Origin: an uncultured bacterium
GTDB taxonomy: Bacteria; Cyanobacteriota; Vampirovibrionia; Gastranaerophilales; Gastranaerophilaceae
Assembly (NCBI GenBank): GCA_902765215.1
Contig: CACWZA010000004.1
Location: 1 to 64,000, forward strand
Direction: 5' to 3'
DNA length: 64,000 nt
The notes under the pieces were generated by a model. That model was not told the origin of the DNA, searched no databases, and saw nothing but the letters and a program-made list of their open reading frames with translations. Each line of letters starts with the position of its first letter. The stretch's first letter is position 1. The translations under genes were made by a program, and so were the position numbers. Positions 391 through 58,387 of the stretch are shown here, piece by piece.

Positions 391-416
391 TTTTATAATT
401 TTAAATTCAATGTACT

Positions 417-436: not shown

Positions 437-486
437 CCGATTAAATTATAGAACAGATATTAAAAGATACAAAATAGTGGAGAAAA

Positions 487-897: not shown

Positions 898-899
898 GT

Positions 900-2532: not shown

Positions 2533-2533
2533 A

Positions 2534-3733
2534 ATGCTTGGGGATACTATTTTAGACAAATTAAGACTTATATATGATAAAAGTTATGTCTTACAAGAAG
2601 ACAGAGAGGCTACAAGTACTTGCTTAAAGGAGTTGTTTCCTTCGGCACAGACGTTTAGTAAGGCTGGCTATGTTTTTAATACCTTCAACCCAGCAAAGTT
2701 AGTTGATATAGAACGTCAAAATGATAACGGACATAACTTACAAATTGTATCTGAGAAAAGATTAGCTAAGGCATTACGGAAAGTATTCCCAGAAAAAATG
2801 AGGGATGTGGTTAGTCCTTCAATTATTCATATAGCAGAAGACTACATACTCAAAAACCCTATTGAAGATTATATGGGTATGCTCTCAAATATAGATAACC
2901 CTTATATTACAGGGGTAACGGTTGAAGCTAATGTATCAGTAAGTTTGTACTTACATTTTACTCAGAGTATAGAATCAGAAGAAACCCCACATTTCAGAAT
3001 AAAATTTTATGACAAAGGTGCAGAGTATTGCAAAAGACACGACAACCCGATTTGTAAGTTATATGAACCTCTTACAAATAAAGAAATGGAATTACTGGGA
3101 GATTCTTATAACCATGAAACTCATAGTATAGATATGAGTACTGTAAATATGCTGAGAATTGAAGTAGAACTGGTGCAGAAAGACAAACTGACTCCAGTGA
3201 TTAAACGCCTTGAAAATGCAGAAGATAAACTTTCACTCCCCATAATGCTTGAGGCATTGGATAAAGGTACTTTTTATAGTGTATTGAGAGAAGTTTTCAG
3301 AGAAAAGCTACGCAAATATGTGTTCACGGCAAAAGATACACTAGACAAAATTGCTGATGAAAATAAGATTTCTACTATGGGTAAATATGCTTGCAAACTA
3401 CAACTCGAGGATAGCAATAGCAAGTATTTTACTGCTTTAATGAATGAATTAGGTTACAAAGATAGTGTAACTACAATGAACAGGCTAGTTCGTAAAATTG
3501 TACCTGATTCAGAACTATATGCAGAGTTATATGGTGCAATATTTTCTGATGAAGATATGGATATTACGGAAGAACCAACGGAGGAGTTAGTTGCAACAAC
3601 TCCTGACAGTACTGACGTTGATTCGACTGAATACTGTATCACGATAGATACTATTGCAAGTCATGACCTATATATCTCTGACTTAAAGGACTTCATGCTG
3701 ATATATGAAGTACCTATACTGGACGATAGTTGA
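2534..3733 (+). CDS. Possible rolling-circle replication initiator
   Basis: A 399-residue protein, last gene of the left operon. Two segments resemble the gene II/X (phage X) and Rep_trans families of rolling-circle initiators: a strand with FYDKGAEY (around residues 157-164) and a strand with LRIEVELVQKDKL (around 211-223). In those families Y-x-K and R-x-E motifs lie in the nicking domain. I do not see a clear HUH motif, so the call is tentative. The C-terminal 60 residues are acidic and low in complexity. Three hairpins lie immediately downstream, as expected near an origin. It could also be a mobilisation protein. Confidence 0.4.
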   Translation: MLGDTILDKLRLIYDKSYVLQEDREATSTCLKELFPSAQTFSKAGYVFNTFNPAKLVDIERQNDNGHNLQIVSEKRLAKALRKVFPEKMRDVVSPSIIHIAEDYILKNPIEDYMGMLSNIDNPYITGVTVEANVSVSLYLHFTQSIESEETPHFRIKFYDKGAEYCKRHDNPICKLYEPLTNKEMELLGDSYNHETHSIDMSTVNMLRIEVELVQKDKLTPVIKRLENAEDKLSLPIMLEALDKGTFYSVLREVFREKLRKYVFTAKDTLDKIADENKISTMGKYACKLQLEDSNSKYFTALMNELGYKDSVTTMNRLVRKIVPDSELYAELYGAIFSDEDMDITEEPTEELVATTPDSTDVDSTEYCITIDTIASHDLYISDLKDFMLIYEVPILDDS

Positions 3734-3794
3734 TAAAATGATTTCTTTAACCCTCACTGTGATAAGTAATGGGGTATTGTAATTTTCAAATATT

Positions 3795-3882
3795 GTGGGT
3801 CTTATAGAAAAGACTCACGAATTTAGGATGTCTTGTACCTACTTGAAATAAAAGTAGTCTAGCTGAGCCTCTGAGCAGGCTC
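3795..3882. other. Cluster of three hairpins, possible origin
   Basis: Three inverted repeats lie in 88 bp. GTGGGTCTT/AAGACTCAC (3795-3818) has a nine-pair stem. CTACTT/AAGTAG (3839-3857) and GAGCCT/AGGCTC (3865-3882) follow. The last may end transcription of the left operon. Three successive stems after a possible Rep gene also fit a double- or single-strand origin, which I cannot separate from terminators by eye. Confidence 0.4.
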
Positions 3883-3894
3883 TAATTAGATGTT

Positions 3895-4257
3895 TTATTT
3901 ATTAACTTCAAGTGCTTTTTGTGTTGTTTTTAATGCATCCAGATAACACCTTAATTCTTCATCATCTTTTGCTGAGTTTAATATATGAAGTGCTTTTGCC
4001 ATTAAAGGATTATTGTTAATGCTGATTTGTTCTAGATTAAGTCCAACTTCTTCTACTGATACTCCCAGTGCATTAAGTAATTTATTCAGTGTTACATATG
4101 TAGGAAAGTATTTACCATTTTCAACTCTGCTCAGATGTTTTTCGTCTATATCAGCCTTTTCTGCTAATGCTTGTTGAGTATAACCTTTAGCTTTTCTAAG
4201 TTCTCTTAGTTTGTTGCCGAATGTGTTGTTTATTCCATTTGATTTCTTGCTGTTCAT
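3895..4257 (-). CDS. XRE-family transcriptional regulator
   Basis: A 120-residue regulator with an N-terminal XRE/Cro-CI helix-turn-helix at about residues 12-66. Recognisable parts are FGNKLRELRKAKGYTQQALA, then DEKHLSRVENGKYFPTYVTLNKLLNALG. The C-terminal 50 residues are helical and probably mediate dimerisation. The reading frame stays open further upstream to 4509, but I choose the ATG at 4257. It has an AGGTAGGTG site just before it, and the upstream translation looks like non-coding antisense to the neighbouring gene. It is divergent from the exported protein gene to its right and may regulate it or the element. Confidence 0.85.
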   Translation of the reverse strand: MNSKKSNGINNTFGNKLRELRKAKGYTQQALAEKADIDEKHLSRVENGKYFPTYVTLNKLLNALGVSVEEVGLNLEQISINNNPLMAKALHILNSAKDDEELRCYLDALKTTQKALEVNK

Positions 4258-4390
4258 CACACCTACCTCTATTCTATTTTGATGGATTTTTATGAACAGC
4301 AACACGATAAGTACGGCAATATTATGTGTTAATATATTTGCCGTATTTATCACATCATGGTACATTTTGTGTAGAGGTAAACCAGATATA

Positions 4391-4870
4391 ATGAAAAAAA
4401 CGGTACTTATACTATTAGCATTATTGCTTGTTTCATTGGTGGCAACAGCAACACCTTTTGAATATGAAACTTGCAATTTGGGATATAAACATGTACACCA
4501 CAAGCACAATGAGGAAAGTTACCAACAGGCATGGAGCAAAGCACATAATGGTGTTATGGAATATGAAAATAGTGATTTGACTAGGGTGGACTGCCTTACA
4601 AAAACTCACGCAGTAGAATTTGACTTTGCAAACAAGTGGCACGAAAGTATTGGACAAGCTCTTCACTATGGACTAATGACTGGAAAAAAGCCTATGGTAG
4701 TCTTAATATTAGATAACCCCGAAAAACAGATGGTGTACTATAACAGAGTTAAAAGATTAGGTAAAAAGTACAAGTTTGATGTGGAATATGTTACAGACGA
4801 TATTCTTGAACTTGATAAAAAGGGAAGATGTCAAAACCCGAAATGTAAATGTCATAGATTATCTAAGTAA
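4391..4870 (+). CDS. Exported PD-(D/E)XK-like nuclease candidate
   Basis: From the ATG at 4391 the product is 159 residues with a classic signal peptide (MKKTVLILLALLLVSLVATATP). The mature part has RVDCLTKTHAVEFDFANKWHES followed by GQALHYGL and a VVLIL strand. The order Asp, Glu-x-Asp, Lys and then a Gln-rich helix fits the PD-(D/E)XK nuclease fold seen in many phage and plasmid hypothetical proteins. Near the mature N-terminus is a His cluster (HVHHKH). A C-terminal C-x4-C-x-C cluster may bind metal. An earlier ATG at 4292 would add a second hydrophobic segment and is the alternative start. Nuclease activity is inferred. Confidence 0.6.
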   Translation: MKKTVLILLALLLVSLVATATPFEYETCNLGYKHVHHKHNEESYQQAWSKAHNGVMEYENSDLTRVDCLTKTHAVEFDFANKWHESIGQALHYGLMTGKKPMVVLILDNPEKQMVYYNRVKRLGKKYKFDVEYVTDDILELDKKGRCQNPKCKCHRLSK

Positions 4871-4976
4871 TATTTAATGCGTCCGATTCTGGCATAGGGT
4901 TATTATAAGATAAACTTAATGAAATGGTAACTTTGTTATTTTTCAAATATAATAACTATTATAAGTGAGGTGTTAT

Positions 4977-5837
4977 ATGGCTAATTTAGTAAAAATGGAG
5001 AAAGTATCATTAAAGAATAATCCTACTATTAAAGAGGATTTAATTCAGAATTTTATTTTTAATGACCCAAGTGTATTAGGATTAGGAGAATTAACTCCTA
5101 TACAGAGAGAAAAGATTCAGCCAGCTGGTGGAAGATTAGATATTTTACTGGCAGATGATAACGGAACAAGATATGAAGTCGAAGTTCAACTTGGTGCCAC
5201 AGACCCTAGTCATATAATAAGAACTATTGAATACTGGGATACAGAGAAGAAAAGATATCCTCAGTATGACCATTGTGCAGTAATCGTAGCAGAAGAAATT
5301 ACTGGTAGATTTATGAATGTAATTTCTTTATTTAATGGTGCTATACCTTTAATTGCTCTCCAAGTATCTGCTTATAAAATGGGTGAAGATGTTTCATTAG
5401 CATTTACTAAAGTCATAGATAGAGTAACTTTAGGTACTGATGAAGAAGAACAATATGAAGTTACTGATAGAAACTATTGGGAAAACAAGAGTACTTCTAA
5501 AATAATGAAACAGGTTGATGAAATATTTAACTGTGTAAAAGAGTATGCTGAAGGATATGAATTAAAATACAACAAATTTTATATCGGATTAACTAAAGAC
5601 GGTATTGCTAATAATTTTGTACTGTTTAAGCCAAAGAAAAATTATTTGTACTTTGTTTTCAAAACAAGTGAAAACCAAGAAAAATTTCAGTTATTAGATA
5701 ATGCTGGATTAGAGTATTCATACACTCCTAGATGGAAAGAGCTTGCAGTTAAAATATCTGATTTTGATGAATACAAAAAGCATAAGGAATTATTAGATGG
5801 TCTTGCAAAGGCTTCAATGGATGATTTTAAGATATAA
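4977..5837 (+). CDS. PD-(D/E)XK-like protein heading the RM operon
   Basis: A 286-residue protein belonging to a widespread uncharacterised family. The N-terminal half has GRLDILLADDNGTRYEVEVQLG (about residues 50-71), an Asp then Glu-x-Glu pattern like the core of PD-(D/E)XK nucleases. It continues with the family-typical IIRTIEYWD and GRFMNVISLFNG. The C-terminal 100 residues resemble the DUF5655-type domain (YIGLTKDG, FVFKTSENQEKF, VKISDFDEY). The ATG at 4977 with GTGAGGTG ahead is preferred over a GTG at 4965. It ends 11 bases before mod, so it probably belongs to the type III operon. A nuclease or DNA-binding role is inference. Confidence 0.7.
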   Translation: MANLVKMEKVSLKNNPTIKEDLIQNFIFNDPSVLGLGELTPIQREKIQPAGGRLDILLADDNGTRYEVEVQLGATDPSHIIRTIEYWDTEKKRYPQYDHCAVIVAEEITGRFMNVISLFNGAIPLIALQVSAYKMGEDVSLAFTKVIDRVTLGTDEEEQYEVTDRNYWENKSTSKIMKQVDEIFNCVKEYAEGYELKYNKFYIGLTKDGIANNFVLFKPKKNYLYFVFKTSENQEKFQLLDNAGLEYSYTPRWKELAVKISDFDEYKKHKELLDGLAKASMDDFKI

Positions 5838-5848
5838 GGAGTTGAATA

Positions 5849-7537
5849 GTGCCGATACTGGAATGGTTGAATAAGGGTGAAGCGACAAAGGTTACAAAGA
5901 AATTACCATACAGAATACTAAAGGCTAATTCTGAGTTATCCTATGGTGAACAGTCAGAGAATATGATTATTAAAGGTGATAACCTTGAGGCATTACAAGC
6001 CTTGTTACCATACTACAAAGGGCAAGCTAAGTGTATTTATATAGACCCTCCTTATAATACTGGTAATGCTTTTGAATATTATGATGATAATTTGGCTCAT
6101 TCCACATGGCTATCGTTAATATATCCTAGATTAGAATTATTAAGGGAACTATTAGCTGAAAATGGTGTTCTTTTTGTTCAAATTGATGATGATGAAATGG
6201 CTTATATGAAAGTTTTACTAGATGAAATTATGGGTAGAAATAACTTTGTTAATCAAGTTAGTGTCAAGATGAAGCAGATGGCAGGTGCAAGTGGGGGTGG
6301 AGAAGATAAACGCTTGAAGAAAAACTTAGAGTACATATTAGTCTATGCAAAGAATTATGAAACATTGCCATTATTCAATCCTGTGTATGAATATACAGAG
6401 ATGTATGATGTTGTTCAAACTTATAAGAATACTGGAAAGACATGGCATTATACATCAGTTCTAGTTGATGAAGGAAAAAAAGAATATGTCGCTTCCACTA
6501 AAGATGGCAATGGTGATGAAATAAAGATATATAAGAGACTTTCACCTGTTATTAAATCCATTAACCAAATAATGAAAGATGAAAATATTACTGAAAAAGA
6601 GGTATATTACAAATATCATAATAGGATATTTGAAGCAAAAGACGCTCAAACCTCTATTAGAACAAGAGTTTATGAAGCCAAACATCAATACGGTATTAAA
6701 GAAGATTTAATTTCGATAGAGTATGTACCTAAGAGTGGTAAAAACAAGGGGGTTATTTCAGAACAATTTTACAAAGGGGATAAGTGTAGACTTTTTGCAT
6801 GGCTGAGCTCTATAGGAACTACTATAGATGGCGTTCTATACAAGAAAGACTTACAAGGTACTTACTGGGATTTTACACAGCACCTAAATAATTTAACAAA
6901 AGAGGGACAGGTTAGATTTCCAAATGGAAAGAAACCAGAAGCATTAGTTGAAAGAATACTATCACTTGCAACAAATGAAGGTGATTTAGTGCTTGATTCC
7001 TTCTTAGGCTCAGGAACAACTTGTGCTGTCGCTCAGAAAATGGGTAGAAGGTACATAGGTATTGAGATGGGAGAGCACGCAATAACTCATTGTGTACCTA
7101 GAATGAAAGCCGTTATTGATGGTGAACAAGGTGGAATATCTAAGGCAGTTCATTGGAAGGGTGGTGGTGGTTACACCTTCTATGACTTAGGTGAAACAAT
7201 ATTTGATGAGGACGGTAGTATCAACAAAGAAGTTGATTTTAGAACCTTAGCAAGCCATATATGGTTTACTGAGACTAAGACATCACTAACTGATTATGAA
7301 AAGTCTCCATTGCTGGGAATACATAACGGAGTAGCATACTACCTATTATTCAATGGGATATTAGGAGACAAGAAACCTGATGGTGGCAATGTATTGACCC
7401 AAAAAGTCTTTGATACTTTGCCTCAATATAATGGTAAAAAAGTTATATATGGTGAGGCTACAAGAATGAATACAGAAAAGCTAAAAGCTAACAATATTGT
7501 ATTCAAGCAGACTCCGTATGATGTGAAAGCAAGGTAG
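5849..7537 (+). CDS. mod: Type III DNA methyltransferase (Mod)
   Basis: This 562-residue protein is the modification and specificity subunit of a type III restriction-modification system, methylating adenine N6 in its target site. Catalytic motif IV (DPPYNTG) sits at residues 66-72. The AdoMet-binding motif I (DSFLGSGTT) follows near residue 385, the beta-class order typical of Mod. The region between them carries target recognition. The start is a GTG preceded by AAGGAG. The gene lies between the PD-(D/E)XK-like gene and a one-TM protein gene, all on the same strand with gaps under 12 bases. Length and motifs are complete, so it should be active. Confidence 0.95.
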   Translation: MPILEWLNKGEATKVTKKLPYRILKANSELSYGEQSENMIIKGDNLEALQALLPYYKGQAKCIYIDPPYNTGNAFEYYDDNLAHSTWLSLIYPRLELLRELLAENGVLFVQIDDDEMAYMKVLLDEIMGRNNFVNQVSVKMKQMAGASGGGEDKRLKKNLEYILVYAKNYETLPLFNPVYEYTEMYDVVQTYKNTGKTWHYTSVLVDEGKKEYVASTKDGNGDEIKIYKRLSPVIKSINQIMKDENITEKEVYYKYHNRIFEAKDAQTSIRTRVYEAKHQYGIKEDLISIEYVPKSGKNKGVISEQFYKGDKCRLFAWLSSIGTTIDGVLYKKDLQGTYWDFTQHLNNLTKEGQVRFPNGKKPEALVERILSLATNEGDLVLDSFLGSGTTCAVAQKMGRRYIGIEMGEHAITHCVPRMKAVIDGEQGGISKAVHWKGGGGYTFYDLGETIFDEDGSINKEVDFRTLASHIWFTETKTSLTDYEKSPLLGIHNGVAYYLLFNGILGDKKPDGGNVLTQKVFDTLPQYNGKKVIYGEATRMNTEKLKANNIVFKQTPYDVKAR

Positions 7538-7540
7538 GAT

Positions 7541-7924
7541 ATGACACCACAAGAAAAGATAGAAATAATTGAAAAAATAGTATTACCAGTTATTTTCTTT
7601 GCAGGTGGAATAATTGGAAGTGTCATAGGTTACTTTGCTGGAATACACAAAGAAAGAGCTAATATTAAGTGGCAAGAACAAAGAGAAGCATTGAAAAAAC
7701 TAGATAAATATCTCTCAAAATTATTGCTTATCATAAAACAAAAAACATTCTTAACTAAGGATGATGTAAAAGAAACTTCTACATTGCTTGAGGATTCGTT
7801 AATGCTTGTCCCTAGAAAACTGAGAGATGAGTTTAAGTATTTTTTACCACAAGTCCCATCAAGTAATGAACCAGCTAAGTTAATATATAATTTCAGAACT
7901 AAAATAGCAAAGGAACTGGAGTAA
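7541..7924 (+). CDS. One-TM protein between mod and res
   Basis: A 127-residue protein with one N-terminal membrane helix (about residues 14-34, VIFFAGGIIGSVIGYFAG) rich in Gly-x3-Gly spacing. It is followed by a charged, probably coiled, cytosolic tail. It starts three bases after mod, and its stop overlaps the res start (TAATG), so it is translationally coupled to both subunits. Type III systems normally have mod and res adjacent, so this gene is an unusual insertion into the operon. It might anchor or modulate the complex at the membrane; nothing in the sequence proves that. Confidence 0.8.
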   Translation: MTPQEKIEIIEKIVLPVIFFAGGIIGSVIGYFAGIHKERANIKWQEQREALKKLDKYLSKLLLIIKQKTFLTKDDVKETSTLLEDSLMLVPRKLRDEFKYFLPQVPSSNEPAKLIYNFRTKIAKELE

Positions 7925-10512
7925 TGTTTGAACTAAAAGAATATCAGAAAAAGACATTAGATACACTTAGGGCTTACTTAGAACAAGTAAGATACAAAGG
8001 TGCAGAAGGTGCATATCATGAAGTTAAAGAAGGCTCTGCTTATAATAAAATTAAAGGATTAGAAAATGTACCTTATATATGTTTAAGACTCCCTACTGGT
8101 GGAGGGAAAACATATCTTGCTTCAAACACAATACCTTTAGTTGCTCACACATACCTTGAAACCGAAACTCCTATGGTGTTGTGGTTTTGTCCTACAAATA
8201 CTATTAAAACACAGACTATAGATACTTTGATGAATCCTAGACATCCTAACAGAGAAGTGCTTGAAAAGGCTTTTGGTGGTAACATCCTTGTCTATGATAT
8301 TGAAGATTATGCTAATGTTAGAGCTCAGGATATAGAAGGTAAGTGTTGTGTGTTTGTTTCAACATTCCAGACCTTCAAAATTACTGATACCAATGCAAGA
8401 AGGATTTATGCACATAATGAAAACTTAGAACCCCACTTCAGGAAGATTTCTAACTTGCAGAATATTGAAAGTTTGGAACGCATTGAAGAGGGTGAAGATA
8501 AGGGAAAAGTTAAGTATTCCTTTGCTAACTTATTGAATATTCACAGACCTATTATTATAGCTGATGAGGCTCATAATAATTCAACAAAGTTAGCTTATGA
8601 AATGCTACAAAGAGTTAATCCGTCTTGTATAATTGAATATACTGCAACACCAGCAAGCAATTCAAACATACTTCATCATGTATGTGCTATGGAACTTAAA
8701 GTAGAAGAAATGATTAAGTTACCTATTATTCTAACAGTTCACCAAACTTGGGAACAGTCATTAAGTGCCAGCGTACTAGCAAGAAATGGATTAGCTGAAA
8801 TAGCAGAAAAAGACAGTAGCTATATCAGACCTATTTTATTGATTCAAGCAGAAAGCAAAGATAAAACTGTTACAGTAGATGTAATTAAGAAGTATCTTGT
8901 TGAACAAGAGAATATTGATGAAAACAAAATAGCTATTGCTACAGGAGACCAGAGAGAATTAGATGGCATTGATTTGTTTGACCCTAAATATCCTATTGAA
9001 TATGTAATAACGGTTGAGGCATTGAAAGAGGGATGGGATTGCTCTTTTGCTTATGTATTCTGCTCAGTAGCTCAGAGACATTCAACAAAAGATATTGAAC
9101 AGTTATTAGGAAGAGTCTTGAGAATGCCTTATGCTAAAACTCGTGAGCAAGAAGAATTGAACAAAGCCTATGCTTTCGTATCTAATACAACATGGCAAGA
9201 AGGTGTTGCTCAACTCAAAGACAGACTTGTTGAAATGGGATTTGAAGAGACTGAAATTCCTGACACCATTCAAGGTAGGTTACCTATTTTGTTAGGTGGA
9301 AATGAAGACAAAAAACCTCTTACTTTTAATGTCTCTAACTTTGATTTGAATGTATTTACACCCGAGGAACAGACTAAACTTGAAGTTAAAGAAACAGCAA
9401 TAGATAAAGTCGTTTCAGTAAAAGAAGGTGTTGAAATTACTCCAGAACTCACTGAGAAGATAATACAAGCAACTCCTAAAGAAGAAAGGAAATCTGTAGA
9501 AATAACTCTTAAAGTGCAACTAAGAAACCAAATTGTGTATAACAGAAGATATCCATCAGAAGACCGTAAACCATTCAGAGTTCCACAATTACAATTATTT
9601 GTTGATGATGACTGGACAAAAGATTATGATGAATACTTTATTGACCCAAGTGGTAAATGGTTACTTAACTGTCCAGCAAAACTTTCAGAAGGTGAATTTA
9701 GGATTAGAAGTACTGGTGCTTCAATATCAATAGATATTAAAGGAAACCATATTGAAGATAGATATATTCAAGAAACAATTGCTCTAAACTTTGGAGAAAC
9801 TCAAACTGACTGGACTTATCCTAAGCTGGCAATATGGGTTACTCAGCAGATTCCAAACAGTTCAATAGCTCAACAAATACAAGTACAATTTATTAGACAA
9901 CTTATAGAAAACTTATGTATTGACAGAGGTATAGCATTTAATGATTTGCTTAGAACAAAGTTCATTCTGAAAGACGCTATTAGAGATAAGATAGCTGAGT
10001 ATAAATATGAGGCAGAACAAGATGGAATGCAAAGAGTTTTGTTCAAAGCTCCTACAGACAGAGTTAAAACTGATTTTAATTACAGCATAGATTTTACTGG
10101 TAAAAAATATGACCCTCCGACTCCATATAGAGGAACAGAATTTAATAAACATTATTTTGCTCAAGTGGGAGATATGAATAAAGAAGAAGTTGAATGTGCA
10201 AGAATCATAGATAACCTTCCAGAAGTAGAGTACTGGGTTAGAAATATTGAAAGACATTCATACTCTTTCTTCTTACCTATGGCTAATGCGAATTTTTACC
10301 CTGATTTTGTAGCATTACTAAAAGATGGTAGAGTCTTTGCTATTGAGTACAAAGGTAAGCATTTAGTTACTAATGATGATTCAAAGAATAAAAATACAAT
10401 AGGACAACTCTGGGAGAAAACCAGTAATGGTAAATGTTTATTCTTGATGGCAACAGAAAAAGACGAAAAAGGTCTAACACTTTCTGAACAAATAAACAGT
10501 AAAGTAAGATAG
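7924..10512 (+). CDS. res: Type III restriction enzyme (Res)
   Basis: This 862-residue subunit is the ATP-dependent translocase and nuclease of the type III system. It acts with Mod when two head-to-head unmodified sites are met. Superfamily 2 motifs are all present. Walker A is LPTGGGKT (residues 56-63), the DEAD-box motif is IADEAHN (near 213) and motif III is YTATPAS (near 239). Motif VI is QLLGRVLRMP (near 395). The C-terminal nuclease has NFYPDF followed by AIEYKGK (about 790-812), the PD-(D/E)XK signature. The ATG overlaps the previous stop by one base. The gene is full length with no frameshift. Confidence 0.95.
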   Translation: MFELKEYQKKTLDTLRAYLEQVRYKGAEGAYHEVKEGSAYNKIKGLENVPYICLRLPTGGGKTYLASNTIPLVAHTYLETETPMVLWFCPTNTIKTQTIDTLMNPRHPNREVLEKAFGGNILVYDIEDYANVRAQDIEGKCCVFVSTFQTFKITDTNARRIYAHNENLEPHFRKISNLQNIESLERIEEGEDKGKVKYSFANLLNIHRPIIIADEAHNNSTKLAYEMLQRVNPSCIIEYTATPASNSNILHHVCAMELKVEEMIKLPIILTVHQTWEQSLSASVLARNGLAEIAEKDSSYIRPILLIQAESKDKTVTVDVIKKYLVEQENIDENKIAIATGDQRELDGIDLFDPKYPIEYVITVEALKEGWDCSFAYVFCSVAQRHSTKDIEQLLGRVLRMPYAKTREQEELNKAYAFVSNTTWQEGVAQLKDRLVEMGFEETEIPDTIQGRLPILLGGNEDKKPLTFNVSNFDLNVFTPEEQTKLEVKETAIDKVVSVKEGVEITPELTEKIIQATPKEERKSVEITLKVQLRNQIVYNRRYPSEDRKPFRVPQLQLFVDDDWTKDYDEYFIDPSGKWLLNCPAKLSEGEFRIRSTGASISIDIKGNHIEDRYIQETIALNFGETQTDWTYPKLAIWVTQQIPNSSIAQQIQVQFIRQLIENLCIDRGIAFNDLLRTKFILKDAIRDKIAEYKYEAEQDGMQRVLFKAPTDRVKTDFNYSIDFTGKKYDPPTPYRGTEFNKHYFAQVGDMNKEEVECARIIDNLPEVEYWVRNIERHSYSFFLPMANANFYPDFVALLKDGRVFAIEYKGKHLVTNDDSKNKNTIGQLWEKTSNGKCLFLMATEKDEKGLTLSEQINSKVR

Positions 10513-10595
10513 ATAATCCCCAAAAACTTAATTTTCTGCAGACGAAGTCAGTGAGATAGGGGAGGAGGTCAAAGATTTGTTTTGTTTTTAAGAAA

Positions 10596-10621
10596 AACCA
10601 AGCCATAAAAAAGGCTTGGTT
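10596..10621. terminator. Hairpin terminator after res
   Basis: AACCAAGCC/GGCTTGGTT, a nine-pair stem with an eight-base loop, stands between the convergent res and resolvase genes. T tracts are short on both sides, so it may serve both directions weakly. Confidence 0.6.
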
Positions 10622-10656
10622 ATAATACAAAATAGTGGTCATTTTATAAATAAACT

Positions 10657-11259
10657 TTATTTAATTTCTGGGAGTTTTTTGATGTAATTATACAGATTAC
10701 CTACAGATGTATTATACTGTTTAGCTATCATGGTTTTAGGAACACCATACGAGAGCATTTTAAGGATGTCGTCTTTGTGAACATCAAGCCTAGACTTACC
10801 CTTGCCTTTAGGACGACCTAATCTAACTCCCTGTGCTTGTCGTGCGTGTAATGCCTCACGGGTTCTGAGGCTTATCAAGTCTCGTTCTATTTGTGCAACA
10901 AGTGCAAATATTGTACTGGTAACGGTGCTAGATATAGAATCATCATTGTTACAGAAATTTTCTTTTAGGGAATACAAGACTATTCCTTTGTCTTTTGTCA
11001 TCTTGATTACTTCTAATATTTGGGTTATTGACCGAGCTATACGAGACAACTCAGGTACTATAAGAATATCTCCTGATATCATAGAATCAAGCAATGTTCC
11101 GAGCTTGCGTTCTTTATAACTTATTCGACCAGAGCAATGCTCTTCAGTAAATTCCACATTGCCTAATTTCTTTGTATTCGCAAATTGTAGGATATCAATT
11201 TTGTTCTTCTCGGTATCTTGGTCTAATGTACTTACCCTCAGAAATGCATGTGTAGTCAT
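10657..11259 (-). CDS. Serine recombinase (resolvase/invertase family)
   Basis: A 200-residue small serine recombinase. The catalytic serine is in FLRVST near the N-terminus, followed by SGDILIVPELSRIARS (with the conserved Arg residues) and the E-helix region containing AQIERDLISLRTREA. A C-terminal helix-turn-helix (DDILKMLSYGVPKTMIAKQYNTSVGNLYNYI) binds the recombination site. The ATG at 11259 has GAGG eight bases upstream and is preferred over 11277. It could resolve dimers of an excised circular form or invert a segment. No clear invertible segment is seen beside it. Confidence 0.9.
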   Translation of the reverse strand: MTTHAFLRVSTLDQDTEKNKIDILQFANTKKLGNVEFTEEHCSGRISYKERKLGTLLDSMISGDILIVPELSRIARSITQILEVIKMTKDKGIVLYSLKENFCNNDDSISSTVTSTIFALVAQIERDLISLRTREALHARQAQGVRLGRPKGKGKSRLDVHKDDILKMLSYGVPKTMIAKQYNTSVGNLYNYIKKLPEIK

Positions 11260-11383
11260 AAAATTGCCTCTTTTCAATGAAAACCTATTATCTTAACTTT
11301 TATTGTATGTATCTATATAAAGAAATACAGCCGTTATTATTGTAGGGAATTATGCAATAAATATGGTCGTTTTCTTTGTATGC

Positions 11384-11782
11384 CTAACCCTCATATATTT
11401 TTCTATACTCTGCTATTGTTTTAGGTGTGAAATAAAAATCTAGGTTAAGCAGTGGGATAGACTCAAATATATAGCTAAGGTCGATATACCCAGCCTCAAA
11501 ATAACCTAGTCCAAGACTGGTATATCCAAAGTGTTCCTGATTTTCTCTGTCGATTTCAGTTACATAAATATCAACATTACCCCAGAAATAATGAAGTACA
11601 GGTTTTACTTCTTCACCTTTTCCGTCTGTTTCATATAGTGCTGGAGCGTTTTCTATTACTTTACTGATATTGTTAGCAACTTCTTGGAAATAAGAGCTTT
11701 CTTCACCTTCTAAGCCTTCAATAAAATAGATAGCCTGACTCCTAGGCATATACTTTAATATTGTTTCTATACTTTGACTCAT
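11384..11782 (-). CDS. DUF2958-like protein
   Basis: A 132-residue acidic protein. The central part (PVLHYFWGNVDIYVTEIDRENQEHFGYTSLG followed by GYIDLSYI) resembles DUF2958 proteins. These are small proteins often found on plasmids and integrative elements, with the pattern aromatic-strand, Glu-x-Asp, Phe-Gly-Tyr, then Gly-Tyr-Ile. Their function is unknown. It precedes nothing obvious on the same strand except the resolvase 120 bases downstream, and probably forms a unit with the small coiled-coil gene at 11818. The family call is from memory of the pattern. Confidence 0.6.
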   Translation of the reverse strand: MSQSIETILKYMPRSQAIYFIEGLEGEESSYFQEVANNISKVIENAPALYETDGKGEEVKPVLHYFWGNVDIYVTEIDRENQEHFGYTSLGLGYFEAGYIDLSYIFESIPLLNLDFYFTPKTIAEYRKIYEG

Positions 11783-11817
11783 AGCTGACCTCCTTCGAGG
11801 AGTGCAGGGGATAACCC

Positions 11818-12111
11818 CTACACTACCTCGAATTTTAAGTAACTTGAAACTTTTAGCAATGATTTGTACAAGTCTGCATACTTTGTTTTCAGAGTCTTAG
11901 TATCAACATTATTACGAGTGATTTCATGTAATTTGAAGGTAAAAGCTCCTGCTTTTAGTTCCAACACATTAGCTTGGTTCATAATGTCTTTAACTTCTGC
12001 GATTTTTTCTTCTTTGAGTTCTTTGAGTTCTGCGATTTTTGATTCCAAAGATTTAATAATTTGTGCGTTTTCTTCTAAATTAACGCTTGTAGTAATAACT
12101 GTAGCTGACAT
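11818..12111 (-). CDS. Small phage-type coiled-coil protein
   Basis: A 97-residue protein starting at ATG 12111, with a strong AAGGAGA site; the upstream frame to 12156 is not needed. A long N-terminal coiled coil (IIKSLESKIAELKELKEEKIAEVKDIM) is followed by a strand-rich end (FTFKLHEITRNNVDTKTLKTKYADLY). The shape and the D-T-K-x-L-K pattern recall small proteins common in phage recombination regions. Their exact role is unclear. It lies divergent from the gene at 12268 across three operators and is probably repressed by whatever binds them. Confidence 0.65.
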   Translation of the reverse strand: MSATVITTSVNLEENAQIIKSLESKIAELKELKEEKIAEVKDIMNQANVLELKAGAFTFKLHEITRNNVDTKTLKTKYADLYKSLLKVSSYLKFEVV

Positions 12112-12160
12112 AATAATTTCTCCTTTCGTTTGCTTTATATCTGACCACAATTTCATGTTA

Positions 12161-12235
12161 CAACATTGAAGTTGGAATTACAACATGTAAGTTGGAATAT
12201 TTTACAATTCTTAATACTTTCCAACATGAAAGTTG
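12161..12235. promoter_or_regulatory. Three operators CAACATNNAAGTTG
   Basis: Three 14-bp imperfect palindromes of the form CAACATNNAAGTTG begin at 12161, 12181 and 12222. They lie between divergent genes starting at 12111 (minus) and 12268 (plus). The first two are 20 bp apart, about two helical turns, so a dimeric repressor could bind them on one face of the DNA. The cognate regulator is not identified. Confidence 0.75.
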
Positions 12236-12267
12236 TAAAATTCTAAACGATAAGATATTATATAGGT

Positions 12268-12678
12268 ATGGCGAAAGATATTGAAAACTTATCAAAATAC
12301 GAAAAAAGACTGAACAAAGAAATAACTAACCTGATGAGCATTGAAAAAATAAAATTCCCAGCAGTGTTACCAGCGTTAGTTAATGACCTGCCGTCTGATA
12401 ATGATGAATATTTAAAGATATTAAAAAAACAACACATGAAATACAGACGGTCGTCATTTAGTATGGAAGAGATATCCAGCATACTAAACAGATTTAACTG
12501 GGAGATTATATATACATGTAACGATAAGCCTATTGAATTGAGTGATTATGTCGTAAAAATAAACGGAGTTAGTCCACGCATACGATTCACTGACTTCATG
12601 ATTATATGTGAACTGTTTTGCATAAATATGAAGTGGCAAAAAAAGAGCGATAGAACCCCTCAAAGTGATTCTGTCTAA
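12268..12678 (+). CDS. Hypothetical protein beside the operators
   Basis: A 136-residue protein of unknown function. The N-terminal 60 residues are strongly helical and charged. The middle has FSMEEISSILNRFNWEIIY, which could be a small helix-turn-helix. No signal peptide is present. It starts 33 bp from the last CAACATNNAAGTTG operator and is likely controlled by it. The gene is convergent with the XRE repressor to its right. It may be an orphan regulator, but the sequence alone does not decide it. Confidence 0.65.
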   Translation: MAKDIENLSKYEKRLNKEITNLMSIEKIKFPAVLPALVNDLPSDNDEYLKILKKQHMKYRRSSFSMEEISSILNRFNWEIIYTCNDKPIELSDYVVKINGVSPRIRFTDFMIICELFCINMKWQKKSDRTPQSDSV

Positions 12679-12731
12679 ACTGTTCTAAAACAGGCTCGGA
12701 AAATTTCATGATTTTTCAAAACTTGCATGTC

Positions 12732-13163
12732 CTAGTCATCAATTGGAGGCGCTGGGAATAACCCCATTTTTTTATAAGAGCTACTGCATTGAGTTTGAAT
12801 AATAGCGTCTAGTTGTGCCATAAAATATGGAATGTGTTCTTTTTTTAAGCCGTAGCGCAATAATACTTGTTGAACATCCTCACTAGTACAGTTATTTTTT
12901 ATATGTGCTTTTTCAATGCTCCCCTGAATTAGACTTGTAAATATATCCTCTGGCAATTCCAATGCCAGAGCAATTTTAATAAAATTAGTAAGAGAAGGAA
13001 CACGACCACGATTAGTCATTAGGTCTGAAATAACACCTTTACTAACGCCTGATTTTTTAACGATGTCATCTACAGTCATGTGCAAGTGCTCTTTTCTTTC
13101 TCTTATTATTGAAGCAATGGCAATGAGCATTGAATCGACATTTATTTCTTTTGGATTATTCAT
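12732..13163 (-). CDS. XRE repressor of the integrase operon
   Basis: A 143-residue protein with a helix-turn-helix of the XRE/CI type at about residues 25-70 (MTVDDIVKKSGVSKGVISDLM then VPSLTNFIKIALALELP). The C-terminal half is helical and lacks the Ser-Lys protease pair of SOS-cleaved CI repressors. It is divergent from the excisionase-integrase operon. The shared intergenic region holds repeated TTGTCCGCA-type sites that overlap the promoter, so it most likely represses excision and its own synthesis. That regulatory assignment is inference from position. Confidence 0.85.
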   Translation of the reverse strand: MNNPKEINVDSMLIAIASIIRERKEHLHMTVDDIVKKSGVSKGVISDLMTNRGRVPSLTNFIKIALALELPEDIFTSLIQGSIEKAHIKNNCTSEDVQQVLLRYGLKKEHIPYFMAQLDAIIQTQCSSSYKKMGLFPAPPIDD

Positions 13164-13187
13164 ACATATATTATATCACAACTTTTC

Positions 13188-13288
13188 TTGTCCGCAATAT
13201 ATGTAAATATCTTTTAATGTTTAGTCGCAATAGTTGACAAACTATTTTGAATGGTTTATTATCTCTTTATAGTCGCAAATGCGGACAA
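13188..13288. promoter_or_regulatory. Operators of the lysogeny-type switch
   Basis: AGTCGCAAtaGTTGACAA (13223-13240) and AGTCGCAAatGCGGACAA (13271-13288) are two 18-bp related direct repeats. TTGTCCGCA (13188-13196) is an inverted half-site. They flank and overlap the excisionase promoter, as expected for a repressor encoded by the adjacent XRE gene. Confidence 0.7.
13234..13262 (+). promoter_or_regulatory. Promoter of the xis-int operon
   Basis: TTGACA (13234-13239), a 17-bp spacer and TATTAT (13257-13262) form a near-consensus promoter. The -35 box lies inside one operator repeat and the other repeat lies just downstream of the -10. Repressor binding would therefore block it. Confidence 0.8.
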
Positions 13289-13313
13289 AAAAGTAAATAA
13301 AAGGAGGGAAAAT

Positions 13314-13613
13314 ATGTCAGTTCAAAAAATTGATGAAATGGCTTATAAACAGAATACATTGTCTGATAGTGAGCCACTGGACAATATGTCTATTACAGAA
13401 GAAGAACCTCAAGACCTTTTGTCGTTCAAACAACTGTGCACTAAACATGGTTACAACTATGACTACCTTTATAAGTATTCGATTCTTAAAGGACAGATAC
13501 CTGTATATGATAGAGGCACATGGAAATTGAGCGAAAGCGAAGTTCTTGAGTTCAGTAGAAAAGTTAAAGAAAAGAAACTCAGCAAAATTAGAAGTATTAA
13601 AGGAGGTGAATGA
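13314..13613 (+). CDS. Excisionase-like DNA-binding protein
   Basis: A 99-residue protein beginning at ATG 13314 behind AGGAGGG. Its C-terminal 55 residues (LSFKQLCTKHGYNYDYLYKYSILKG, then VYDRGTWKLSESEVLEF) fit the MerR-like winged helix of excisionases and HTH_17 proteins. The first 40 residues are acidic and probably disordered. The stop overlaps the region before the integrase start, so the two are co-expressed. Its likely role is to direct the integrase towards excision. The fold is fairly clear; the excisionase role comes from its neighbour. Confidence 0.8.
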   Translation: MSVQKIDEMAYKQNTLSDSEPLDNMSITEEEPQDLLSFKQLCTKHGYNYDYLYKYSILKGQIPVYDRGTWKLSESEVLEFSRKVKEKKLSKIRSIKGGE

Positions 13614-13615
13614 TA

Positions 13616-14701
13616 ATGGCTGGGATAAGTAAAGTTAAAATAAAGCGTGCAAGTGGTAAAGTTGATACAAAGTATCGAATTACTTATCGTGATACAAGTG
13701 GGCAACATACCTCTAAGCTATATGATACAAAAGAGGCTGCCAAAAAAGATTTATATAAGTATGATAAGGTAAACTCATACTCCCTCAACATAACTATTGG
13801 GCAAATGTGCAATGCATATATGGACTCTGTAAAAGAAAGACATTCATATACCACCATAAAAGATACTGAGGCGTATATGGATAAACACATAAGTAAACTC
13901 TTTGGTGTTAAATATGAAAAATTTAGCTCAATTGAGTTAGAAAGATTTATCAACAATATAGCAAAAGAACATACTCCAAATGTTGCAAATCAGGCATTGA
14001 AAAAGATTAAAGCAGTAGCTAGTTATAGTTATAAAAATGGGCTAATCAGAGAAAATAAATTTAAAGTTGTTTCAAATATTCCTGTGGAAAACAAACCTCA
14101 TTATTCATTGGAGGAAAATGAGATAATTGAGGTACTAAATAATTGCAAAGACTTGTACCCCAAATATTATGCTCTGATATACACAGGGATTGCAACTGGA
14201 ACAAGAATCGGAGAATTAAGTGCCTTAACAATTGATGATGTTCATTTTGAGGAGGGCAATAATTATATTCATATTGACAAACAATACTCAAAAGATATAC
14301 TACTGCCACACACAAAGACAAAAGACATTAGAGATGTCGCAATATTTGATGATTTATCAGATGTGTTACGAATGCACATTGAAAACTTACCAACAGGTTC
14401 AAAACTTTTGTTCCCTAATAATGCTGGCAATTATCAGAATCTTTCTAATTTAAGGAACAGAGTGTGGTATCCACTATTGGTTCATTCAGGGATTACCAAA
14501 AGAGTGAGGATACACGATTTGCGTAGTTCCTATATAAATTTGACTCTTTCAAGTAAGTTGAGTATTAAATTTGTTCAAGCACAAGTAGGACATAAAAAGT
14601 CTCAAACAACACTAGATATATATGCTAGAAACAATGGAGATATGAAAAAAATAGCAATGGAGGTACTAAATGAAAAATTTTCTCAAAGAAATAAGGAGTG
14701 A
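13616..14701 (+). CDS. int: Tyrosine integrase of the element
   Basis: This 361-residue tyrosine recombinase inserts the element into tRNA-Val. An N-terminal arm-binding domain (about residues 1-60) is followed by a SAM-like core-binding domain (to about 165). The catalytic domain has GTRIGELSALT (first Arg), HDLRSSYI (His-x-x-Arg), QVGHKKSQTTLDIYA (His and the Tyr nucleophile). I place the start at ATG 13616, eight bases after GGAGGTG; ATG 13610 is too close to that site. The stop lies within the arm-type repeat at 14698-14716, 64 bp from attR. Confidence 0.95.
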   Translation: MAGISKVKIKRASGKVDTKYRITYRDTSGQHTSKLYDTKEAAKKDLYKYDKVNSYSLNITIGQMCNAYMDSVKERHSYTTIKDTEAYMDKHISKLFGVKYEKFSSIELERFINNIAKEHTPNVANQALKKIKAVASYSYKNGLIRENKFKVVSNIPVENKPHYSLEENEIIEVLNNCKDLYPKYYALIYTGIATGTRIGELSALTIDDVHFEEGNNYIHIDKQYSKDILLPHTKTKDIRDVAIFDDLSDVLRMHIENLPTGSKLLFPNNAGNYQNLSNLRNRVWYPLLVHSGITKRVRIHDLRSSYINLTLSSKLSIKFVQAQVGHKKSQTTLDIYARNNGDMKKIAMEVLNEKFSQRNKE

Positions 14702-14726
14702 GCAAAATGTGAGCAAAATTGCTCAC
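14698..14726 (+). repeat. Right arm-type integrase site candidate
   Basis: The copy of gtgagcaaaatgtgagcaa at 14698-14716 is followed by the inverted unit ttgctcac (14719-14726). It overlaps the last codons of int. Together with 372-390 it forms a pair of sites near both ends, as expected for integrase arm binding. Confidence 0.65.
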
Positions 14727-14731
14727 ATAAT

Positions 14732-14762
14732 AAAAAAACAAGAGTCTAAAACTCTTGTTTTT
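14732..14762. terminator. Bidirectional terminator between int and tRNA-Val
   Basis: A 12-pair stem (AAAAACAAGAGT side and its complement) with a five-base loop has A and T tracts on both sides. It can stop int transcription rightward and tRNA-Val transcription leftward. The element thus brings a replacement for the tRNA terminator it displaced to 165-190. Confidence 0.8.
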
Positions 14763-14765
14763 ATT

Positions 14766-14811
14766 ATGGTGGGCGTTAGAAGACTCGAACTTCTGACCCT
14801 CTCCTTGTAAG
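14766..14811. repeat. attR: tRNA-Val 3'-end copy
   Basis: Identical over 46 bp to 196-241. Here the sequence continues into the tRNA 5' half, so this junction preserves the complete gene. Confidence 0.92.
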
Positions 14812-14842
14812 GGAGACGCTCTACCAACTGAGCTAAACGCCC
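14767..14842 (-). tRNA. tRNA-Val(UAC)
   Basis: A 76-nt cloverleaf on the minus strand with GGGCGTT/AACGCCC acceptor, GCTC/GAGC D-stem, TCTCC/GGAGA anticodon stem and loop CTTACAA giving anticodon UAC. The TTCGAGT loop and an encoded CCA are present. It is the integration target of the element; its 3' half is contributed by attR. Confidence 0.95.
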
Positions 14843-30811: not shown

Positions 30812-30897
30812 GGGTAGATGGCCGAGTGGCTAAAGGCGACAGACTGTAAATCTGTTCCCGCGAGGGTACGGTGGTTCGAATCCACCTCTGCCCACCA
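30812..30897 (+). tRNA. tRNA-Tyr(GUA)
   Basis: An 86-nt class II tRNA with acceptor GGGTAGA/TCTGCCC, a long variable arm (TCCCGCGAGGGTAC), anticodon loop CTGTAAA (anticodon GUA) and an encoded CCA. Its last 12 bases reappear three times downstream in the 31112-31612 array. Confidence 0.95.
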
Positions 30898-30903
30898 TTT
30901 TAG

Positions 30904-30938
30904 TAAAAAGAGAATACCTTTATGGTATTCTCTTTTTA
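30904..30938 (+). terminator. tRNA cluster terminator
   Basis: A 15-pair stem (AAAAAGAGAATACC side) with a TTTAT loop and a five-T tract, seven bases past tRNA-Tyr. Confidence 0.9.
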
Positions 30939-31111
30939 CTTTAAATATGTTTGGTGGATGAGAACCAACCAAACGGAGTTTGGTCTGGTTCGAGCGGATT
31001 TGCGTACGTATTGAGCGAAGCTAAATTCGGATAGCGAACAGATGACGTTGACAGGTACAAAGTACCGAAAACGGCACTCTGTGAGCGTGGAGCAAATTCA
31101 AGACAATCCAC

Positions 31112-31612
31112 CTCTGCCCAATTTTAAAAGACTTTCGAGAAATCGGGGGTCTTTTTTGTTATCCTTTCAAAATTGGGCAGAGAGTCTTCGATCCACACGC
31201 AAAGTATCACGCAGGTGATTAACGAAAAAGTGTATATTTTCTTTGCGGTGGTTCTTCCTCCATTTGCTTATTCTGTCTGCTTTTCTGTTACGCAGAACTG
31301 TGACGCAAAACGTGACATTTAGTCACCTTTTGCTGAACGCAAACGGAGTCCTTACCTCTGCCCACCATTTTAAAAGACTTTCGAGAAATCGGGGGTCTTT
31401 TTTGTTATCCTTTCAAAATTGGGCAGAGAGTCTCCGAATCACAACAAAAATCAGAGATTTTTGCGGTGGTTTTTCCTCCATTTGCTTATTCTGTCTACTT
31501 TTCTGTTATGCAGAACTGTGACGCAAACGGAGTCCTTACCTCTGCCCACCATTTCAAAAGACTTTCGAGAAATCGGGAGTCTTTTTTGTTATCCTTTTAA
31601 AATTGGGCAGAG
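31112..31612 (+). repeat. Three tandem copies of tRNA-Tyr end plus terminator
   Basis: Each copy starts with the tRNA-Tyr 3' end (CTCTGCCCA, with CCA in copies 2 and 3) at 31112, 31356 and 31540. Next comes a hairpin with a GAAA tetraloop and T run (31126-31157, 31372-31403, 31556-31587). The inverse AAAATTGGGCAGAG closes it (31169, 31415, 31599). The spacers share about 65 bp (tgcggtggtt...gacgcaaa). The stretch from 30940 to 31111 has no gene I can support. Confidence 0.8.
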
Positions 31613-31638
31613 AGTCTTTGCCCAACAAAATACAAAAA

Positions 31639-35154: not shown

Positions 35155-35269
35155 TTTAATACTACCCATCGTCGGTTTGTTACCGTCAGGCATTAGCACC
35201 GTTAAGCAATAGCTTTGGTTGCTGTGTAGTCACAGGGCCTGTCCCTCGTACACTCTTTATGGTATTAAA
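35155..35269 (-). promoter_or_regulatory. SAM-I riboswitch (S-box)
   Basis: On the minus strand the conserved blocks occur in order. P1 is TTTAATAC closing with GTATTAAA at the far end. Next come GAGGGACAGGCCC, then GCAACC, then GGTGCTAATGCCTG. These are the core of the SAM-I aptamer: the kink-turn strand, the P2 to pseudoknot region and the J3/4 block. SAM-I RNAs usually control methionine or SAM genes and shut them off at high SAM. No clear terminator is seen before the downstream start, so control may be at translation. Confidence 0.85.
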
Positions 35270-56672: not shown

Positions 56673-57455
56673 ATGGATAAAAATAACAGATTTAATTACG
56701 TTTCTGCAATAGCACATGAGTCGAAAGTCAGCAATATTGTCAGTATGACAAAAGAGGACTTTACTCAGTATGCTTTGCGTGCGGACAGATTGCGTAATTC
56801 AGGACAGTATAAAGAATCTGTTTCGTGTTACTTACAGTCTATTATGCTCCAGAGAGACAACTATCGTGCATACTTAGGGCTTGGTCAGTCTTATAAATTT
56901 TTGAATGATTACGACAAGGCTATTAAGAATTTGGAAAAATCTGCAGAAATAAATCCTAATGACTACCAGATATATTATGAAATGGGTATTTGTTATTTAT
57001 TAAAATCTATGCCTGAAAAATCTATAAAGTGTTTTCAAAAGTCAGTAATGCTTGACAGAACACAGTTAGATGTTCAACTCCAGTTGGCATTGGCTCATGA
57101 GCTGGTTGATGAAAAAGAAATGGCAATGCTCATTTATAACAAAATTATAGAGGAACATCCCGAGTACCTCAAGGCATCAAGCCACAAAGCGGCATTGTTA
57201 ATATGCGAAGGGAAATATTTAGAGGCGAGTAAAATATTCTTTGATATTTTGAAACGAAACCCTGATTTTCACCGTGCATATTTCGGGATAGCAGTATGTT
57301 TTGACAACATGAAAAAATACAATGACGCAAAACGCTACTATACAAAATTCTTAAAAATTAAACCAAACTCATCTCACGCAGATTATGTTAAAAACAGACT
57401 GAATATGCTGAAAAGCACAAATTCGTCAAAACCTGCCTATATGGAATTGGTCTAG
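56673..57455 (+). CDS. TPR protein
   Basis: A 260-residue cytosolic protein with about six tetratricopeptide repeats. Examples are LRNSGQYKESVSCYLQSIML, LNDYDKAIKNLEKSAEINP, KYLEASKIFFDILKRNP and KKYNDAKRYYTKFLKIKP. TPRs bind partner proteins; the partner is unknown. GGAGAG precedes the start. Its last codons overlap the end of the convergent Xer gene by four bases. Confidence 0.85.
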   Translation: MDKNNRFNYVSAIAHESKVSNIVSMTKEDFTQYALRADRLRNSGQYKESVSCYLQSIMLQRDNYRAYLGLGQSYKFLNDYDKAIKNLEKSAEINPNDYQIYYEMGICYLLKSMPEKSIKCFQKSVMLDRTQLDVQLQLALAHELVDEKEMAMLIYNKIIEEHPEYLKASSHKAALLICEGKYLEASKIFFDILKRNPDFHRAYFGIAVCFDNMKKYNDAKRYYTKFLKIKPNSSHADYVKNRLNMLKSTNSSKPAYMELV

Positions 57456-58387
57456 TCTGTTTCAATATCTTCCTGAATTGCGTGAGGGTGTGCCTTTATG
57501 TACTCTTGTTTTAAATGTTGTGATGAAACGTGTGTGTATATTTGAGTGTTTGAAATGCTTGCGTGTCCGAGAAGCTCCTGAACAACACGTAAATCAGCGC
57601 CGTTTTCTATCATTCTGGTTGCAAAACTGTGTCTGAAAACATGCGGAGTGACATGTTTTGGTAAATCTATTTTGTCTACAACATCGTTGATTGCGTTCCG
57701 TATGCTCTTATCCTGAAGTCTGAATCCGGTTTTATTTACAAATACAGGTGATTTTTCCGTCAGCTGTTGAGGGTTGTCCTTCATTATAAGCGGGCGGGCA
57801 GTATCTATATATTGGGTTAAATACTTCTTTGCCCGTTCTGATATTAAAACAATTCTTTCCTTTGCGCCTTTTCCGAATACGGTTATTTCGTTTTCATCAA
57901 GGTTAAGGTCTTCAAAGTTGAGCCCGCTCAACTCTGAAACACGCATTCCTGTTGCCCACAGAAGCTCCAGTATTGCTTTGTTTCTAAGCCCTGAAGGGGT
58001 ATTTATATCTACATTATCTAGCAGTGTCATCATTTCGTCATCTGTCAAAAACTTTGGCAGCGATTTGGGTTTTTTAGGTGCTGTCAGGTTTTCGGCAGGG
58101 TTTGCTGAAATATATTGAGTTTTGTGCAGATATTTAAAAAATGTTCTGAGTGCTGCTATTTTTCTCGCAATAGTTGTTTTTTTATAGTTAAACTTTTGTA
58201 TAAAATGTAAATATTCTCTCAATTTGTTAAAATTAACTTTTTCGGGAGCGAGGTAATTACACCAGATAAAAAAACTTAAAACATCTGACTGATATGCCTT
58301 TACTGTATGCTCTGAGAAGTTTTTCTCGACACTCAGGTATGCTTTGAAGCTTTTTATATGTCCACCAAAAGTTGTATTTATTGGCAT
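57452..58387 (-). CDS. xerC: Xer-type tyrosine recombinase
   Basis: A 311-residue recombinase of the XerC/XerD family. It has the core-binding domain (FKAYLSVEKNFSEHTVKAYQSDV). The catalytic residues are the Arg in LLWATGMRVSELSG, the His and Arg in HVFRHSFATRMIENG, the His in LLGHASISNTQIYTH, and the Tyr nucleophile in IYTH. It probably resolves chromosome dimers at dif, acting with another Xer protein. I cannot tell XerC from XerD by eye. The gene is monocistronic; the end overlaps the TPR gene convergently. Confidence 0.9.
   Translation of the reverse strand: MPINTTFGGHIKSFKAYLSVEKNFSEHTVKAYQSDVLSFFIWCNYLAPEKVNFNKLREYLHFIQKFNYKKTTIARKIAALRTFFKYLHKTQYISANPAENLTAPKKPKSLPKFLTDDEMMTLLDNVDINTPSGLRNKAILELLWATGMRVSELSGLNFEDLNLDENEITVFGKGAKERIVLISERAKKYLTQYIDTARPLIMKDNPQQLTEKSPVFVNKTGFRLQDKSIRNAINDVVDKIDLPKHVTPHVFRHSFATRMIENGADLRVVQELLGHASISNTQIYTHVSSQHLKQEYIKAHPHAIQEDIETD

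Follow-up and report, generated by a model that had tools for sequence, protein, structure and literature searches.

The tRNA-Tyr array and its parts

The window analysed here, a stretch of 64,000 nucleotides (contig CACWZA010000004.1, assembly GCA_902765215.1) from an uncultured member of the Gastranaerophilaceae, contains a tRNA-Tyr(gta) gene followed by an array of copies of its own 3' end. Three tandem copies had been noticed in a preliminary description of the sequence, and they are real. They form 97-nt repeats at 31091-31187, 31337-31433, and 31521-31617, which gives the reported periods of 246 and 184. Each tail copy is followed by GACTTTCGA-GAAA-TCGGGGGTC with a T-run and then by CTTTYAAAATTGGGCAGAG, and an inverted GGGCAGAG closes each copy, the arms at 31112-31130 on one side and at 31164-31182, 31410-31428, and 31594-31612 on the other forming inverted repeats. 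In copy 1, the portion taken from the tRNA is AATCCACCTCTGCCCA, which runs from A58 to the discriminator base; in copies 2 and 3 it is ACCTCTGCCCA plus CCA. The start of the array had been placed too far downstream, as a first unit (30898-31104), itself a repeat found elsewhere in the genome, was overlooked. This unit 1 is bounded by a 16-nt direct repeat (30879-30894 and 31105-31120). The array consists of the following parts:

30812..30897, + strand: tRNA-Tyr(gta), the anchor gene (ARAGORN and Rfam)
30879-30894, + strand: A58-A73 segment of the anchor tRNA, copied in each unit
30902..30940, + strand: terminator hairpin immediately downstream of tRNA-Tyr, forming the left end of unit 1 (17-bp perfect inverted repeat)
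30953..30966, + strand: unit 1, antisense T-arm copy GGTGGATGAGAACC, the reverse complement of the T-arm with TC changed to GA (from sequence)
30968..30984, + strand: unit 1, apical hairpin ACCAAACGGAGTTTGGT between the antisense and sense T-arm (from sequence)
30986..30993, + strand: unit 1, 5' half of the sense T-arm, TGGTTCGA, split by module A (from sequence)
30994..31104, + strand: module A of unit 1, a 110-nt palindromic repeat with a three-way junction (covariance model, 117 bits; covariation)
31105..31120, + strand: first tRNA-Tyr 3'-end copy, AATCCACCTCTGCCCA (from sequence), the partner of 30879-30894
31126..31157, + strand: unit 2, terminator-like hairpin with GAAA loop and T-run (from sequence)
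31164..31182, + strand: unit 2, inverted tRNA 3'-end copy, ending TTGGGCAGAG (inverted repeat, 95% complementary)
31242..31353, + strand: module B in unit 2, GTGGTTC and then CTCCATTTGC to CGCAAACGGAGTCCTT (repeat D2; dispersed relatives)
31354..31364, + strand: second tRNA-Tyr 3'-end copy, ACCTCTGCCCA(CCA) (repeat comparison)
31410..31428, + strand: unit 3, inverted tRNA 3'-end copy (inverted repeat)
31460..31537, + strand: unit 3, shorter copy of module B (96% identity to the first module B over 68 nt)
31538..31548, + strand: third tRNA-Tyr 3'-end copy (repeat comparison)
31594..31612, + strand: last inverted tRNA 3'-end copy, end of the array (inverted repeat)

None of the tRNA-Tyr units in the window contains cargo genes. 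A SAM riboswitch (S box), scoring above the Rfam gathering score, lies further along the window (35163-35265, - strand).

Organization of the units

Read in the forward direction, a typical unit comprises the tRNA tail, the terminator hairpin, an antisense T-arm (GGTGGAT-GA-GAACC, with the central TC replaced by GA), a small hairpin, GGTTCGA (the 5' half of the sense T-arm), a palindromic module, and the tRNA sequence from A58 to the 3' end. Each cassette is flanked on either side by a direct copy of the 3' part of a single tRNA, which leaves the tRNA intact. A terminator-like hairpin forms its start, most cassettes contain an antisense copy of the T-arm of that tRNA, and one of several palindromic modules is set in the T-loop or T-arm of the sense copy. 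The antisense arm is a closer match to the tRNA of its own unit than to the other tRNAs (p ~0.0005) in a permutation test that is based on the longest exact matches and is noisy for single tRNAs. Individual units vary, and some are without a clear antisense arm. Judged by eye, modules B to F follow a similar plan, some of them being reversed and having a shorter restored tail.

The tRNA-Tyr locus in related genomes

Unit 1 is present in two species of the same genus and absent from a third, exactly across the 16-nt direct repeat. It spans 226-230 bp in this genome and in that of a congeneric relative (G001), bounded by AATCCACCTCTGCCCA, i.e. tRNA positions A58 to A73. In a second congeneric genome (G005), the tRNA-Tyr tail leads directly into the second hairpin without unit 1, with AATCCACCTCTGCCCA as the boundary. 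Based on DNA identity to this genome in the ligA region, G005 (80.5%) is the closer relative compared to G001 (76%), whereas the unit 1 sequences of this genome and G001 share 90% identity. As a 16-nt repeat allows precise loss via slippage or homologous recombination, the empty site in G005 is no proof of site-specific excision.

The number of tRNA-Tyr tail copies is three here and three and four in the relatives, and the array of G005 includes a 2.1-kb unit with a PPDK_N-like gene. Among the sampled loci of other genera, only two genomes (G018 and G022) have a tail copy at tRNA-Tyr. Thus, the same copies are not fixed in relatives: unit 1 is present or absent, the copy number varies, and most other genera have no array. 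Neighboring units are 95-99% identical within an array or genome and 75-86% between genomes, indicating that tandem duplication and homogenization add to insertion. The proposal that the copies are the scar of repeated integration or excision at tRNA-Tyr therefore holds in large part, in view of the presence/absence of unit 1 and the variable copy number, with the qualification that some of the copies stem from tandem duplication.

Tail copies at other tRNA genes

Tail copies are not restricted to tRNA-Tyr but occur genome-wide. A copy of the own 3' end on the same strand and within 1.4 kb downstream was found for 18 of the 38 tRNA genes in this genome and for 11 of 32 in G001. A 20-nt tail with up to four mismatches turned up neither in shuffled downstream sequences nor on the opposite strand, which rules out chance. 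The first tail copies mostly lie ~110-235 nt downstream of the tRNA gene. With unit 1 as the query, eleven matches were obtained in its own genome, and 19 of 58 relatives gave matches as well; those that were read out sit in arrays at other tRNA genes, where the units end with the tail of the local tRNA. The same modules recur at different tRNAs, in each case combined with the tail of the tRNA concerned.

Units have been gained, lost, or exchanged among species of one genus. With the proviso that several of the G001 stretches are cut by contig ends, tRNA-Ile and tRNA-Val have units only in G001, while Met, Asp, Gly(gcc), Gly(tcc), Phe, and Arg(acg) have them only in this genome; His and Leu(gag) bear different modules in the two genomes, and Tyr, Pro(tgg), Gly(ccc), and Thr(cgt) share a unit type. 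The array at tRNA-Leu(gag) comprises eight tails over 26 kb (contig C33 of this genome, 18.5-44.7 kb; L138/L139). Its units are either gene-free and ~190-260 bp long or range from 1.3 to 18 kb and carry cargo, namely a two-partner secretion pair, a mannosyltransferase-like protein, and a lipase-like protein. The pair is adhesin-like and consists of an ORF of at least 3140 aa and a ShlB/FhaC-type transporter, both inside one tail-bounded unit.

These observations bear on the possibility that local tandem duplication alone produced the arrays, i.e. that one ancient insertion or slippage event doubled the tRNA-Tyr tail and terminator and unequal crossing-over did the rest, with no mobile element involved. 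The high similarity of neighboring units within a genome, the near-identical tandem units in G005 and G001, and the tail copies at Pro and Ser(tga), which repeat the terminator as well, are all in line with such a process, and tandem duplication is likely the cause of tRNA-Tyr copies 2 and 3. As a full explanation it is weakened because modules are shared, with different tails, among many unlinked tRNA genes. Furthermore, modules are found in other genera within unrelated palindromes (see below), and units differ between orthologous tRNAs. Overall, we regard duplication alone as an unlikely origin of the arrays.

Module A is a structured insertion element

Module A folds into a three-way junction of 110 nt. 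In an alignment of 18 copies, 97.2% of the cells pair, and 14 of the 26 base pairs have two-sided changes. None of 500 shuffles reached the observed covariation on any of five measures. Related sequences can outperform shuffles without any structure; controls with a slid structure retain this relatedness and also fail, their paired fraction dropping to 10-47%. The preliminary description had alternatively suggested that tRNA ends make up a small family of repeated RNAs. This holds only in part: module A is a conserved, strongly covarying structured repeat, but it does not consist of tRNA ends.

Using a covariance model, module A was detected in 95 of 146 genomes of the family and in 29 of 41 genera. 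The copy number per genome ranges from 1 to at least 26 and is 11 in the genome studied here. In a sample of the phylum, all 65 matching genomes belonged to the same family, to which module A thus appears to be confined. Contigs with the module A pattern were labelled as uncultured bacterium (RUG MAGs), Melainabacteria, cyanobacterium, and, in one case, a Pontimonas MAG.

The examined copies in the own genome all lie within tRNA-tail arrays. In two other genomes (G021 and G034), many copies are located at the center of unrelated palindromes, and empty palindromes occur in the same genomes as filled ones (CCTGAACTT^GTTTCAGG and the type GTGGGAGA^GGGT, with ^ marking the site). Compared with the empty palindromes, the filled ones have GCGG...AAGAC inserted with zero target duplication, give or take one base. 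On its own, module A is a structured, non-coding insertion element that inserts into hairpin loops and does not duplicate its target. One host palindrome in G021, TGTCATCCTGAACTTGTTTCAGGATCTTA, is an abundant dispersed repeat that is found both with and without module A (L204-L214).

Searches of module A and the units against Rfam at gathering and relaxed thresholds gave no family at threshold. The nearest bacterial family on the units is GA-cis, with 27.9 bits compared to a gathering score of 34.7; two sub-threshold matches to it, of ~27.8 bits, lie on the tRNA-Thr units (L121, 465-527 and 793-850). A match to whalefall-1 (34.4 vs. 37 bits, E 1.7e-5) was seen upstream of tRNA-His in the own genome (L124, 129-200, - strand). 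Identity with a known Rfam RNA family was rejected, GA-cis, whalefall-1, and all others remaining below threshold. A viral origin of module A was likewise dismissed, as the pattern was found in no IMG/VR contig. The short module B pattern matched ten viral contigs, with a clear array only in one of them (3300001528_001039; L196, 1-720), where two tRNA-Thr genes and a tRNA-Tyr gene precede a module B unit. Another module is nested within this unit and phage-type replication genes follow; the phage-like part of this contig may be a chimeric assembly.

The conserved structure could also mean that the units are functional RNAs, in which case read-through or processed transcripts would form a structure of tail and antisense T-arm that regulates the tRNA or its terminator. 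The strong covariation would fit such a role, as would the RNA-type hairpin with G.U pairs and a GAAA loop, the tandem GA/GA motifs, and the antisense match to the own tRNA. However, a terminator-like hairpin directly follows most tail copies, half of the tRNA genes and most relatives lack units, and no Rfam family reaches threshold. From the sequence features at hand, we consider a regulatory function of the units highly doubtful.

Candidate enzymes for mobilization

A Phage_integrase scan of the genome identified four genes, XerC, XerD, and two island integrases, and thereby no integron integrase. No enzyme was linked to the cassettes, and no Phage_integrase gene was located within the examined arrays. 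Two of the four genes can be placed in the window:

57452-58387: XerC (Phage_integrase scan)
13610-14701, + strand: integrase of the tRNA-Val(tac) island, adjoining the tRNA 3' end

The latter belongs to an apparently intact island of 14.6 kb in tRNA-Val(tac) (197-14814), the only intact island in the window, which also encodes a pair of modification-methylase-like and helicase/restriction-like proteins and a resolvase; the 3' half of the tRNA recurs in it as a long direct repeat at ~197-241. Its integrase was discarded as the mover of the cassettes, since its att repeat is ~45 nt long and not the A58-A73 segment. HUH/Y1 transposases are absent from the module A-rich genomes G021, G032, and G034 and present in G000 and G001, and IS110 DEDD transposases were found in none of five module-bearing genomes. 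Neither tracks module A, and both were excluded as movers because they are missing where module A reaches its highest abundance outside tRNA arrays.

The recombinase inventory also bears on an integron-like system, in which the modules would be folded attC-like sites, the tRNA 3' end an attI-like anchor, and a tyrosine recombinase (XerC/D or one since lost) would shuffle the cassettes. The units share with such a system that they end in an imperfect palindrome beside a short direct repeat, that the structure of module A is conserved via compensatory changes, and that empty and gene-bearing cassettes are mixed. Yet this genome has neither an integron integrase nor a further tyrosine recombinase, single copies of module A are also found in ordinary palindromes that have no cassettes next to them, the palindromes are found in both orientations, and the tail is tRNA-specific. 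An integron-like mechanism is therefore improbable.

Proposed origin of the arrays

The best reading of the arrays, which we consider probable, is that small mobile cassettes, most of them non-coding, inserted one after another at tRNA 3' ends and were then duplicated in tandem. Insertion may act at the T-arm palindrome, either as a hairpin or cruciform or via a recombinase that reads the near-invariant GGTTCRANYCC, and the tRNA 3' end would be duplicated or restored in the process. Units could then multiply and homogenize via recombination between the ~70-nt repeats of tail plus terminator, while longer units would capture cargo genes. The mobilizing enzyme presumably works in trans or has been lost.

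More tentatively, module A and its fellows may represent a new class of structured mobile elements that target hairpin loops of nucleic acids by structure, both the tRNA T-loop and other palindromes, and build cassettes that copy the local tRNA tail. We put this forward as a possibility, with more doubt than confidence. If true, one element family would be able to colonize many tRNA genes of a genome without harm to them.

Comparison with known systems

The bacterial palindromic repeats REP, ERIC, and the Rickettsia palindromic elements, as well as MITEs, are short, structured, dispersed, and non-coding, and their copy number varies between close species. Module A shares all these properties, including its variable copy number, but, as far as a comparison by description allows, differs in that it enters hairpin loops, including the T-loop of tRNA-tail copies, without target duplication. 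Literature searches for tRNA repeats in the Gastranaerophilales and for palindromic tRNA insertions found nothing pertinent. Being absent from Rfam and previously uncatalogued, module A adds an easily searchable structured repeat.

Integrons form arrays of small cassettes that terminate in an imperfect palindrome and may or may not carry cargo; their integrase can be missing, and a CALIN needs no integron integrase. The units resemble them as arrays of small palindrome-ended cassettes in which cargo is optional. In contrast to integrons and CALINs, there is no IntI here, the repeats consist of tRNA tails and differ from one anchoring tRNA to the next, and the palindromes also occur alone elsewhere. 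The attC architecture is defined by R and L boxes and a GTTRRRY core; compared by eye only, the T-loop in the units reads GTTCRA.

Genes for tRNAs are classic landing sites of genomic islands, usually with one site per integrase. The presence of common short modules at many tRNA genes, each with its own tail, is not explained by the usual att-core model. Additive flexible genomic islands at tRNA genes, marked by a repeated part of the tRNA, have been described for Ca. Actinomarinales (PMC7771536), and in fGI-2 of Ca. Methylopumilus the direct repeats correspond to the last 20 nt of tRNA-Lys, with islands of 330 bp to 42 kb (PMC10872708). Like these, the units found here lie between direct repeats of the anchoring tRNA's 3' part and leave this tRNA intact, they are present or absent between close relatives, and some contain cargo genes (the Leu(gag) array and the tRNA-Tyr array of G005). 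The arrays thus have the defining features of tRNA-anchored additive genomic islands. They differ from them in affecting about half of all tRNA genes, in the small size (90-250 bp) and lack of genes of most units, and in the antisense T-arm and shared palindromic modules that the units contain. As described in PMC10872708, tycheposons are tRNA-anchored cargo elements of 4-200 kb with a tyrosine recombinase. Measured against that description, the units are similar in being tRNA-anchored elements with cargo and differ in having no tyrosine recombinase of their own in the examined arrays. The tycheposon host Prochlorococcus is a cyanobacterium and as such a distant relative of the lineage studied here. 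Taken as a whole, the arrays look like tRNA-anchored genomic islands in miniature that are unusually densely distributed, and insight into how they move would bear on both the origin of tRNA islands and the spread of palindromic repeats.
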